Assembly: GCA_016869145.1 (NCBI GenBank)
Contig: VGEU01000022.1
Coordinates: forward strand, 1 to 38,141
Source of the DNA: Alphaproteobacteria bacterium
GTDB lineage: Bacteria > Pseudomonadota > Alphaproteobacteria > MPNO01 > VGEU01
DNA: 38,141 nt
Direction of reading: 5' to 3'
Shown: piece after piece, positions 20,137 to 25,158 of the stretch
How the letters are laid out: each line of letters opens with the position of its first letter
Position numbering within the stretch: the first letter of the stretch is position 1
The notes under the pieces: model-generated
Databases searched by the model: none
What the model saw: the letters and a program-made list of their open reading frames with translations, nothing else
What the model was told of the DNA's origin: nothing
Made by a program: the position numbers and the translations under genes

Positions 20137-20973
20137 ATGAAACGACTCGGGCTCGGCCGAGCGATTGCGGTCGTCGTCGCGATCGCGCTCGGCGGTTGCA
20201 CCAATCTCGACGCGGTCAAGGATTTCGCGAACGCGGCCGGCGGCATCGCCCAGTACGACGCGCTGGTCGTCGACTACGTCGCCTTCCCAGCGCGCCAGAA
20301 ACGGTGTTAGCTACAAGAGCGGCACGCCCGGCTCGACCAGATCGCGGCGACGCGCGCGGGCCAGCGCGACGGTCTCCTCGCAATGCAGCAGGCCGTCCTC
20401 GAATACATGGACGCGCTCGGCCGGCTCGCCGGCGACGAGTCCGTCAATTACGACCGCGAGCTCGACCAGCTCGGCCGCGCCGCCTCGAGCGTGCGCTTCC
20501 TCGATGGCGGACAGGGCAACGCCGTCGGCGGGATCGCGCGTCTTCTCGTTCGCGCCGGCACCGACGGCTGGCGGCGGTCGCGCGTCACCGCGCTGATCGC
20601 CGAGGCCAACCCACACGTCCAGACCGTGACCGGCGCGCTCCGCCGCCTCGCCGAGCAGGGCTGGCGCGAGGACGCGGAGACCGAGTCCGCCGCGGTCCGC
20701 AACCACTTTCAGCGCATCGCGCGCGAGTCGCGTGATCCCGCAGGCATCGAGGCGCTCGGCGATCTCGGGGACCGGCGCGGCCGCGAGGTCGAGGCGCGCC
20801 GGTGCGTGATCGACGCCTATGTCCAAGGCGTCGGCCGCATCGCGGCCGGCCACCAGCGCCTCGCCGACGCCGGCGCGGCGATCGATCGGGACGAGGCCAT
20901 CGATGTCGTCCGCCGGCACGCCCGCGAGCTCAAGGCGCTCGGGCCGCTTCTGCGCCCGCTGTCGCCGGTCTGA
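20137..20973 (+). pseudogene. Predicted lipoprotein, interrupted by one in-frame amber codon
   Basis: From ATG 20137 the frame encodes a basic start, a hydrophobic stretch and lipobox LGGC (C20), then helical sequence. Codon 58 is TAG (20308-20310). The same frame continues open for 220 codons to a TGA at 20971-20973, with even, charged, helix-forming composition (QERHARLDQIAATRAGQRD, DALGRLAGDESVNYDRELD). Without the amber the product would be 278 residues, a lipidated, mostly alpha-helical periplasmic protein. No family is recognised. The stop could be a nonsense mutation, a sequencing error or a readthrough site. The next gene begins 10 nt later with a strong ribosome-binding site, so this heads a run of five same-strand genes. 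Confidence 0.72.
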
Positions 20974-20983
20974 GGAGATCACC

Positions 20984-21322
20984 ATGGCCAAGATCACCGC
21001 CGAGCAGGCGTTCGAGCTGTCGCGGGAGTTCCGCCTCCTGTCGATCGCGATCGGCGACTATCGCTTCGCCAACTGTGACGCGCTCAAGCCGGCCGAGCGC
21101 CAGAAGCTCGAGGACCAGGAATGGTCGCTCCTCAACGCGTCGTCGGACATGCGCACCCAGGCGGTCGGGCTCCTCCTCGACGAGACCGAGATCGGGATCA
21201 AGGGGCTCTCGGAGACGACCGGGAAGGCGAAGTCCGCGCTCGCGTCGGCCGTGCTCGCCAAGGATGCGGGGGCAGTGGCGAAGAACGCGAAGGCGATCTA
21301 CGATGCGGCGAGCAGCCTATAG
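20984..21322 (+). CDS. Small helical protein of unknown function
   Basis: 112 residues from ATG 20984, preceded by GAGGAG at good spacing. The sequence is soluble and helical (ITAEQAFELSREFRLLS, LKPAERQKLEDQEWSLL, ALASAVLAKDAGAVAKNAK) with no signal peptide or membrane segment, and one cysteine. I do not recognise a family. The stop is TAG at 21320-21322. The following exported-protein gene starts 30 nt later in the same frame. Placed between a lipoprotein gene and three exported paralogues, it may be a cytoplasmic component of the same unknown system. Confidence 0.65.
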   Translation: MAKITAEQAFELSREFRLLSIAIGDYRFANCDALKPAERQKLEDQEWSLLNASSDMRTQAVGLLLDETEIGIKGLSETTGKAKSALASAVLAKDAGAVAKNAKAIYDAASSL

Positions 21323-21352
21323 AGCGCGCGCCACGTCGAGAAGGATCCCACG

Positions 21353-22120
21353 ATGCGTTCCCTGATTGCGGCAGCCGCCGTCGCTGCCGCGCTCCTAGCG
21401 CCCGCGGTCTCCCTCGCCCAGGAACCGTAGGTTCCGACCATCAACATCGTCCACAAGGACGCGGAGGGTCGGCTCCTCGTCAACGGCGTTCCGGCCGGCT
21501 TGTTCGGCAAGGACAGCAAGGCCGGCCCGTCGTCGACGATGGCGCTCAATCCCGGCCTCTGGATGCGCAACGGGCCGAACACGATCACGGTCGAATCGCG
21601 GGCCAAGAAGCCGGGCGGCGAGGCTCGGGTCGTCATCGTCCGCTCCATCTCGGAGAAGCCCGAGTTCGAACGCACCATCGCCGGCACCGGCACGGTTACG
21701 CACCAGACGAACGGCGGCGGGTTGCCGCAATGGTCGTTCTATGGCGCCGAGGCGTGGACCGGCGACACGAAGGCGGTGCTCGACGCGGTCAAGACGCTCC
21801 ACGCCGCCTTCGGCAGGAAGGATATCACGACGATCGAAGCGACGCGCAAGGCGTTCGAGGCCGACCTCACGCAGGTCATGGGACCGATGCCCGATGAGGC
21901 GCGCGAGGAGTTTCGGGAGATCGTCAAGACCGGAAAGCTCGCGACGCTGCCGGCCGATCTCCGGGTCACGGCCCATCTCGACAATCGCCTGTTCGTCGTT
22001 GCGCGCGCGAACGGCGAGGCGCCGATCCAGGTTGCGCACCCGAGCGGCGATCCGATGATGACCTTCGATACCGGCCAGTACTGGGTGCGCAGCGGCGGCA
22101 CGTGGCAGATCGTCCGGTGA
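21353..22120 (+). pseudogene. Unknown exported protein, paralogue 1, in-frame amber after the signal peptide
   Basis: ATG 21353 begins a clear signal peptide (RSLIAAAAVAAALLAPAVSLAQ). Codon 26 is TAG (21428-21430), immediately after the predicted cleavage site. The same frame continues to a TGA at 22118-22120. The full reading frame is 255 codons and aligns along its length with the next two genes: INIVHKDAEGRLLVNGVP, LWMRNGPNTITVES, LPQWSFYGAEAWTGD, VKTLHAAFGRKD, LDNRLFVVARANG, and the terminal YWVRSGGTWQIVR. As read, only a signal peptide would be made from the first start; restart inside would lack a signal. Function unknown. Confidence 0.72.
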
Positions 22121-22878
22121 TCGCCGCCGCGCTCGTCGCGCTCGGCGCGCTGTCGTCGGCGAGCGACGCGGCGGCGCAGGCCCAGATCGGGGTCCCCAAC
22201 TACACCGTCAATATCGATGCCCGCGACGCGGCCGGGCGCGTCCTCGTCAACGGCATCCCGATCCGCTGGTTCGGGACCGGCGGCGATGCGCCACCCGGCG
22301 GGCTGATCCAGCCTGCCGGCATCTGGCTGGTCGAGGGTGAGAACACGATCGCGGTCGAGGTGCGCGCCGCGAAGGGCACGGCGACCGCGCGCGTCCTCAT
22401 GCTGCGCAATCCGGGCGAGCCGCCGCTCGCCGACGAGATCCTGCTCGGGGCCGGGAGCGTCGAGCGCAAGGTGACGGCGCCGAAGATGCCCGCCTGGAGC
22501 TGGCTCGACGCCGACACGGTCGCCGACGCGCGGGGACCGCTCCTCGGCGCCGTCCGCGCCTTCCACGCGGCCTACGAGAAACGCGACCTGCCGGCGATCC
22601 GCGCGCTCCGGCGCGCGCTCGACAAGGATCTCGAGCAGGTCATGGGACCGATGACGCAGGACCGGCTCGACCGCGAGGAGGCGTTCGTGCGCGCCGCAAC
22701 GGTCGCGCCGCTCCCCGCCGATCTCGTGGTCACCGCCTTCGCCGACAACCGCCTGTTCCTCGTCGCGCGCGCCGATGGCACGGCGCCGGTCACGTTGAGC
22801 GCGCCCGACCTCCCGATCAAGCCGGAGCTCGGCCGGTTCTGGGTCCGCAAGGGCGGCGCGTGGCAGGTCGTCCGTTGA
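22117..22878 (+). CDS. Unknown exported protein, paralogue 2
   Basis: A 253-residue intact member of the tandem family. I chose the GTG at 22117, which overlaps the previous TGA (GTGA), giving IAAALVALGALSSASDAAAQA as signal peptide. A GTG at 22102 in the same frame would add five residues including an arginine and is possible. Shared segments with paralogues 1 and 3: VNIDARDAAGRVLVNGIP, IWLVEGENTIAVEVRA, WSWLDADTV, FHAAYEKRDLPAIRAL, FADNRLFLVARADG and FWVRKGGAWQVVR. The pattern suggests an N-terminal beta-sandwich, a helical middle and a C-terminal beta domain. No known family is recognised. Confidence 0.75.
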   Translation: MIAAALVALGALSSASDAAAQAQIGVPNYTVNIDARDAAGRVLVNGIPIRWFGTGGDAPPGGLIQPAGIWLVEGENTIAVEVRAAKGTATARVLMLRNPGEPPLADEILLGAGSVERKVTAPKMPAWSWLDADTVADARGPLLGAVRAFHAAYEKRDLPAIRALRRALDKDLEQVMGPMTQDRLDREEAFVRAATVAPLPADLVVTAFADNRLFLVARADGTAPVTLSAPDLPIKPELGRFWVRKGGAWQVVR

Positions 22879-23051
22879 GGCGTCCGGGCCGCGATGGCCA
22901 TTGAGGACAGCGAACGATGACCCTCTGTCCCGCGGGGCTCGGTCCCGCGGGCGCGGGCTCGTGGCGCGGGCTGGCCAACTTGATCGTGCACCCCATTTCG
23001 ACAATCGCCTGTTCGTGGTAAGCCGCTCCGCCACTGGATAAGGACCCGATC
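22879..23051 (+). other. Spacer between paralogues 2 and 3
   Basis: 173 nt without an intact gene. It has two copies of the self-complementary octamer cccgcggg (near 22929 and 22942) and, at its 3' end, a scrap of paralogue-1-like coding sequence (22982-23041, listed separately). AAGGA at about 23040-23044 can serve as ribosome-binding site for paralogue 3. Confidence 0.55.
22982..23041 (+). pseudogene. Remnant of a fourth copy of the exported-protein family
   Basis: Nineteen bases at 22998-23016 are identical to 21978-21996 in paralogue 1, with near-identity for several bases before. Translation in the matching frame gives APHFDNRLFVVSR, compared with TAHLDNRLFVVAR in paralogue 1, then ends at a TAA (23039-23041). 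Paralogues 2 and 3 differ at several of these bases, so the scrap derives from paralogue 1. No similarity continues on either side. It is a leftover of duplication or recombination, not a gene. Confidence 0.7.
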
Positions 23052-23816
23052 GTGTTCCGCTCCCTCCTGCCGCTCGCGGCATGCATCCTCTCGTTCGGCC
23101 TCGGTCTCGGCGCGCCGTCGGCGCAGGAGCGCGAGGCGCCGGCCAGCATCGCGATCAAGATCGAGCCGCGAAACGCCGAAGGCCGGCTCCTGATCAACGG
23201 CGTGCCGACCCATCGCTTCGGCGGCCCCGACGACATCGACGGCGGGCTGACGGCGACGACGATCCTGTGGATGGTCGACGGCGAGAACAGCTTCGTGATC
23301 GAGGCGCGGCCCAAGGGCGATGATGCCCGCACGCGCGTCTCGCTTCTGCGCGACGGCAACGAGCAGCCGTTGTTCCAGCAGACCATCCAGGGCGCCGGCC
23401 GGCTCGAACGCAAGATCACGGCGAACGGGCTGCCGCGCTGGGGCTGGGTCGGCGCCGAGCGCTGGAACGGCGATGCGAGGCAACTCCTCGCCGCGGTCAC
23501 CGCGCTCCATACCGCCTACACGAAGAAGGACCACGCCCGCATCGAGGCGATGCACAAGGCGATGAACGACGACTTCGCCAAGCTCCTCGGACCGGTCAGC
23601 GAGGGCGAACGCGCCGAGGAGCGCGCCTTCCTCGCCAAGGCGGCCGTCGAGCCGCTCGGCGCAGAGCTCAGCGCCTATCCGTTCTTCGACAACCGCCTCG
23701 TCATGGTCGCGCGTCCCGACGGCAGCGCGCCGATCCGCATCAAGGGCCAGGACGGGGTCTCCGAGCACGGCCATTTCTGGGTCCGCCGCGGCGGCCAGTG
23801 GCAGGTCGTGCGCTGA
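23052..23816 (+). CDS. Unknown exported protein, paralogue 3
   Basis: A 254-residue intact member from GTG 23052, with AAGGA eight bases upstream. The signal peptide ends at about APSAQ (residues 22-26); an LAAC near residue 11 resembles a lipobox but lies too early in the hydrophobic stretch to be convincing. Shared family segments: IKIEPRNAEGRLLINGVP, ILWMVDGENSFVIEARP, RLERKITANGLPRWGWV, HTAYTKKDHARIEAM, FFDNRLVMVARPDG and FWVRRGGQWQVVR. Two conserved glutamates or aspartates occur around the FAKLLGPVSEGE stretch. Convergent with the hydrolase gene (7-nt gap). Function unknown; a periplasmic location is expected. Confidence 0.78.
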   Translation: MFRSLLPLAACILSFGLGLGAPSAQEREAPASIAIKIEPRNAEGRLLINGVPTHRFGGPDDIDGGLTATTILWMVDGENSFVIEARPKGDDARTRVSLLRDGNEQPLFQQTIQGAGRLERKITANGLPRWGWVGAERWNGDARQLLAAVTALHTAYTKKDHARIEAMHKAMNDDFAKLLGPVSEGERAEERAFLAKAAVEPLGAELSAYPFFDNRLVMVARPDGSAPIRIKGQDGVSEHGHFWVRRGGQWQVVR

Positions 23817-23823
23817 TCGCGCC

Positions 23824-24756
23824 TCAGCGCACGGTGGCGGCCACCCAGCCCGCGATCAGATGCGCGATCGCGTCCGAGTTGTCCTCGAGCATCATCATGT
23901 GGCCGTTGCCGCCGATCCCGAAATCGGTCAGGTACCAGTAATCGACATGCGCGCCGTTGGCTGAGAGCCAGCGCGCGACCTCGCCGTCGACCTCGCGCGC
24001 ATGGTCGGTGTCGCACTCGCCGGTGACGATCAGGATCCGACGACCGGAGAGCCGTGACGGGTCGCGCACCTTGATCTGGCTGCCCGCGACATTCTGGCGC
24101 TCGTAGATGTTGCGCGGCGGGATCGCCTGGAGGCTCGCGCGATAGGCGGCGAGCGCGTGGCGCGGGAAGCGCGTCGTGCGGCCGAGGAGCTTGTCCTCGA
24201 CGAGCGCGGGCGAGGGCGCCATGGGGCGATCGAGCGGCAGCCGCTAGGTGAGCGCGACGCCCCGGACCTCGACGAAATCCGGTCCGCGCGCGAGCACCGC
24301 CGGCTCGGGCTGGATGTTGCCGGGCGGTCCCGGCACGACGGCGACGACCGCCTGGATCTTCTCGCCATGGCGCTCGAGGATGCGCCAGCCATAGGCCCCC
24401 GACATCGAGTGCGTCAACAGGACGACCGGCGTGGACAGGCTCTCGATCAGCGCACCGATGCCGTCGCACACGGTCTCGCCGGTCATGTCGGCGAACGGGA
24501 TATAGGCGCTGCGCCCGACGCCCGGCCAATCGGGAACGACGACGCGGTGACCCCACTCGGCGAAGCGCACCGCCCAGCCGGGACGATCGTCGGGCGTGCG
24601 CAGATAGCAGAGCCCGGTGTGTGCACCACCATGCACCGCGACGATGGTCGGCCGCGAGCGACCCGCCGCCGGCTCGAGCATGTCGAAATAAACCGACGGT
24701 GTCGCCACCGTGACGCCCGCGGTCAGCCGCACAGGCGCATTGGGGTTCTCGGTCAT
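23824..24756 (-). pseudogene. Alpha/beta hydrolase interrupted by one in-frame amber codon
   Basis: ATG 24756 has GGAGG five bases upstream. The first 170 codons give the core fold: PTIVAVHGGAHTG (oxyanion region), VVVPDWPGVGRS and LLTHSMSGAYG with nucleophile S117. Codon 171 is TAG (24246-24244). The same frame then runs 139 codons more, giving RLPLDRPMAPSPALVEDKL, LIVTGECDTDH with the likely catalytic acid, and GIGGNGHMMMLEDNS with H286, to a TGA at 23826-23824. The catalytic triad is thus split by the stop. Restored length would be 310 residues, normal for the family. Without readthrough the product lacks acid and histidine and should be inactive. Confidence 0.82.
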
Positions 24757-24969: not shown

Positions 24970-25158
24970 ATGAAGAAGCGAATTCTGGCGCTGTTTCGCG
25001 CACTGCTGCTCGTCGTCGGCGGTTTGATCATCGGCCTCGCCGCCTCGCCGAGTTGGGCGACGCTGACGCCGCGGATACCGGAGCCGACGAGCCTCGGCAT
25101 ACTCGCAGCCGGCATCGCCGGCGCGCTAATCATCATCCGGCTGCGCCGCCGGCGATAG
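24970..25158 (+). CDS. Minimal PEP-CTERM sorting-signal protein
   Basis: A 62-residue protein from ATG 24970, preceded by AGGAGGA. It is a signal peptide (KKRILALFRALLLVVGGLIIGLAASPSWA) followed by six or so residues (TLTPRI) and a classic PEP-CTERM tail: PEPTSLGILAAGIAGA, a hydrophobic segment and a C-terminal RLRRRR. PEP-CTERM proteins are cleaved by exosortase and usually carry a large secreted domain; almost none is present here. No exosortase is in the window. It may be a short secreted peptide precursor, an anchor stub, or the tail of a decayed gene. The 189-nt region upstream (24781-24969) shows no other gene. Confidence 0.82.
   Translation: MKKRILALFRALLLVVGGLIIGLAASPSWATLTPRIPEPTSLGILAAGIAGALIIIRLRRRR

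Follow-up and report, generated by a model that had tools for sequence, protein, structure and literature searches.

Three neighbouring alphaproteobacterial genes interrupted by in-frame TAG codons form part of a genome-wide background of interior stops

Results

The interrupted genes and their surroundings

The window analysed here is a stretch of 38,141 nucleotides from an alphaproteobacterium. It makes up the whole of contig C22, which belongs to a draft assembly totalling 3.93 Mb (247 contigs, 69% GC). A lipoprotein gene, one member of an exported family and an alpha/beta hydrolase gene each contain a single in-frame TAG. The features are as follows.

20137-20973, plus strand: lipoprotein gene interrupted by TAG, with the lipobox LGGC upstream of the stop and most of the protein downstream
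20308-20310, plus strand: in-frame TAG of the lipoprotein gene, codon 58
21353-22120, plus strand: exported paralogue 1, interrupted by TAG between signal peptide and mature domain
21428-21430, plus strand: in-frame TAG of exported paralogue 1, codon 26
22102-22878, plus strand: exported paralogue 2, intact
22994-23041, plus strand: paralogue-like fragment encoding HFDNRLFVVSRSATG and then a stop, resembling the paralogue C-terminal region
23052-23816, plus strand: exported paralogue 3, intact
23824-24756, minus strand: alpha/beta hydrolase gene interrupted by TAG
24244-24246, minus strand: in-frame TAG of the hydrolase gene, codon 171 (orthologues have R in nine of ten cases and C in one)

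The stops exist in the assembly. A sequence-only reading of this DNA had placed one TAG in each gene, at codons 58, 26 and 171, and we confirmed all three; the frame is open on either side of each TAG and coding sequence flanks it, as that reading had also claimed. No frameshift was seen in any of the three genes, and the sequence beyond each stop still has a fully coding appearance.

Among the 26 other genomes searched from the order, none had a homologue of the lipoprotein; in 385 genomes of the class there were only two, both distant. One of these is collinear across the TAG. If translation halted at codon 58, a lipoprotein of 57 residues would be left.

The exported proteins encoded in tandem at 21353-23816 form a family, each member having about 250 residues; no convincing Pfam or NCBIfam assignment was obtained for it. 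Paralogue 1 aligns over its full length with the intact paralogues 2 and 3, both of which have sense codons in the region matching its TAG. Ending at codon 26, translation would leave the signal peptide alone. The fragment between paralogues 2 and 3 is probably debris of a further paralogue copy, judging from its similarity to paralogue 1 (24 of 26 bases identical between 22994-23019 and 21974-21999). The family is narrow, occurring in four of the 385 searched genomes of the class (three besides this genome). A homologue in genome G188, from another bacterial family (C24:22077-22817, L105), contains three TAG and one TAA in a single frame with no frameshift. The TAG of paralogue 1 lies inside an inverted repeat whose 6-bp arms match perfectly around a loop of three bases (21422-21436; GGAACC-GTA-GGTTCC). 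Since 4% of random positions and one of 20 interior stops have arms of this length or more, we attribute this hairpin to chance.

In the hydrolase, the TAG falls within a single Pfam domain (Abhydrolase_6, residues 38-298), and ten order-level orthologues are collinear across the stop. The nucleophile motif HSMSG lies upstream of the stop; CDTDH and GNGHMMML, downstream of it, are the probable Asp and His regions. A stop at codon 171 would therefore cost the enzyme the Asp and the His that are probably catalytic. The gene was found in only ten of 26 order relatives, and a scan of genome contigs gave no relatives of it. The comparison of orthologous residues proposed in the sequence-only reading showed a sense codon in all ten order-level orthologues here; in the lipoprotein, the stop site itself aligns poorly. 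Adjoining the broken hydrolase, a short gene at 24970-25158 has a product that carries the PEP-CTERM sorting motif (PF07589).

Interior stops in the rest of the genome

In a sample of 1.48 Mb from the same assembly, we searched for stops flanked on each side by coding signal in one and the same frame, using a coding-frame model trained on frames filtered by position-specific GC. The scan gave 80 matches. Many of the TGA matches were gene junctions, as shown by separate Pfam domains and start codons. A stop was taken as verified when Pfam domains or one gene frame spanned it; the sorting of interior stops from junctions was partly done by eye, and the Pfam-verified list is its firm part.

About 20 interior stops were verified in the sample, 17 of them outside the window and three within it. 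Sixteen of the 20 listed are TAG, some are TAA and one is TGA. Those outside the window are as follows.

TAG, one each: DUF547, LysR regulator, MBOAT, PhoX, TctC, SLT transglycosylase, MlaD
TAG, between domains: TPP enzyme, AMP-binding enzyme
TAG, two each: Na+/H+ exchanger, one of two ftsH copies
TAA: GlgB (between domains), LonB-like protease, zinc alcohol dehydrogenase
TGA: FixO

The density over the other contigs is about 13-18 per Mb, and the sample holds additional, unverified candidates. The sequence-only reading had set the three stops against about 30 other genes of the window with no internal stop. The rarity implied by this comparison does not extend to the genome. Since interior stops were verified on other contigs, the three in the window are part of a general background; the three-TAG cluster is not special, and the same type of break is found throughout the sampled genome.

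The interrupted ftsH-like gene (L128, 3078-5267, minus strand) has its two TAGs within FtsH domains, and an uninterrupted ftsH copy lies on contig C23 (L193). The TGA lies in fixO, a cbb3 oxidase subunit gene (L080, 5611-6372, plus strand, contig C7). As this is the sole fixO found in the genome, either the cbb3 oxidase may be broken or a base of fixO may be miscalled.

A frameshift scan returned mostly ordinary gene junctions, and about three matches were judged by eye to be likely true frameshifts (L080 17157, L090 7089, L151 6147). Interior stops thus clearly outnumber convincing frameshifts in the sample, and the two genes with two stops, the ftsH copy and the Na+/H+ exchanger, have no frameshift. 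Among 93 genes common to the order relative G007, there was no convincing interior stop or frameshift, a sparing that is statistically weak because only about one to two breaks were expected. Many interior-stop candidates were also found in G188, where some matches begin inside the profile, as after frameshifts. G119 showed no clear interior stop in a small sample of 224 kb.

Stop identity and clustering

The sequence-only reading had argued that mutation turns GC-rich codons into TAG most readily, and this holds. From codon usage, 0.63-0.68 of single-base nonsense changes are expected to give TAG, whatever the transition bias. With a share of about 65%, the chance that three of three stops are TAG is about 0.27; the 16 of 20 observed over the sample also fit mutation from this codon usage. 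Runs of TAG alone are consequently weak evidence for recoding and call for caution, because a nonsense change or miscall of a single base mostly yields TAG when the genome is GC-rich. If the sample holds 20 to 30 breaks, chance alone gives an expected 0.08-0.26 triplets within 3.9 kb per genome. The tightness of the triplet is therefore mildly unusual, and clustering is expected of decaying loci anyway.

Reading of the TAG codons

Readthrough of amber codons, programmed or general, or a partial reassignment of UAG, would give full-length proteins from these genes. The coding appearance of the sequence downstream of the stops and the many TAGs among them would suit it, and in-frame stop readthrough has been proposed to be widespread among prokaryotes (PMC7918605). 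However, the search for an amber suppressor tRNA suggested in the sequence-only reading found none. The CTA anticodon was absent from all 38 tRNA loci, a list that is incomplete, since it has no entry for tRNA-Tyr, tRNA-Asp and a few others that would be expected. A tRNA-like pattern search gave two matches, one being the tRNA-Arg(tct) of contig C42 and the other un-tRNA-like by inspection. The best match to pyrrolysyl-tRNA synthetase (PylS) scored 28.6 bits, far below the cut-off of 178, and the genome has two strong homologues of class-I release factors (RF1 and RF2 taken together). TAG terminates 247 of 867 long frames (about 28%), which bears out the earlier view that general reassignment is unlikely because TAG ends many genes. 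Relatives carry different residues at the TAG positions (R in the hydrolase, E in ftsH, Q in PhoX), so no reassignment of UAG to a single amino acid is indicated, and breaks by TAA and TGA occur as well. None of the tRNA, release factor, PylS, terminator or residue evidence favours decoding of UAG, and we consider such decoding very improbable. Even less probable is a genome-wide, low-level readthrough of UAG and UAA by near-cognate tRNAs, by which interior TAG and TAA would be partly translated and the genes would stay functional.

Discussion

As the same breaks occur genome-wide, they point to ordinary gene decay or to erroneous bases in the assembly rather than to a novel reading of the genetic code. 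Of the options offered by the sequence-only reading, decay and sequence error thus stay viable, and local readthrough is unsupported.

The reading that we prefer, with a probability of roughly 0.6, is nonsense decay in a GC-rich bacterium. Three non-essential genes would each have been hit independently by one single-codon nonsense change, and the breaks in the window would belong to a background of recent gene breakage that extends over the genome. We infer that the stops are genetically real and terminate translation. Decay is favoured because the broken genes look dispensable or redundant (the second ftsH copy, the hydrolase, the lipoprotein, the exported family), because the genes common to G007 have no convincing break, because the paralogue fragment and a few frameshifted genes are present, and because the interior stops are spread over other contigs with identities that match codon usage. 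Against it stand the three genes of the window, with no frameshift and with downstream parts that seem fully coding. The two-stop genes can be explained equally well by base miscalls, and the sparing of conserved genes carries little weight.

Miscalled consensus bases in a fragmented, possibly low-coverage assembly are a serious rival, and a possible one, although we think it the less probable. The organism itself would then have intact genes, and the TAGs would be wrong calls. The number of contigs, the occurrence of interior stops genome-wide, single-copy fixO included, and their clear excess over convincing frameshifts all agree with this. Cooley and Wright reported that low-quality reads increase the number of internal stops more than that of frameshifts, and that internal-stop counts track assembly correctness (PMC11017572). 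The interior-stop load of this genome would be a useful check on assembly quality. Against miscalls count the lack of breaks in the 93 conserved genes and the position of the ftsH breaks in one of two copies, and some frameshifts and the paralogue fragment point to real decay.

Comparison with known systems

Like the stops suspected of readthrough (PMC7918605), the TAGs here lie inside genes whose frame is kept; unlike them, they are not conserved in relatives, and a suppressor was not found. The spurious pseudogenes produced by miscalls (PMC11017572) resemble the present case in that interior stops exceed frameshifts and the assembly is fragmented. They differ in that conserved genes here seem spared and local duplication debris is present. 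Recent bacterial nonsense pseudogenes differ from the present genes in one respect, as the relatives compared here are not close enough to show the intact ancestral allele. In other respects the genes are alike: the frame is well kept apart from a single in-frame stop, and the genes are narrowly distributed or have a second copy. As in nonsense pseudogenes, homologous coding sequence runs on in frame past the stop, and relatives have a sense codon at the site in the hydrolase and the paralogues, the lipoprotein site being poorly alignable.
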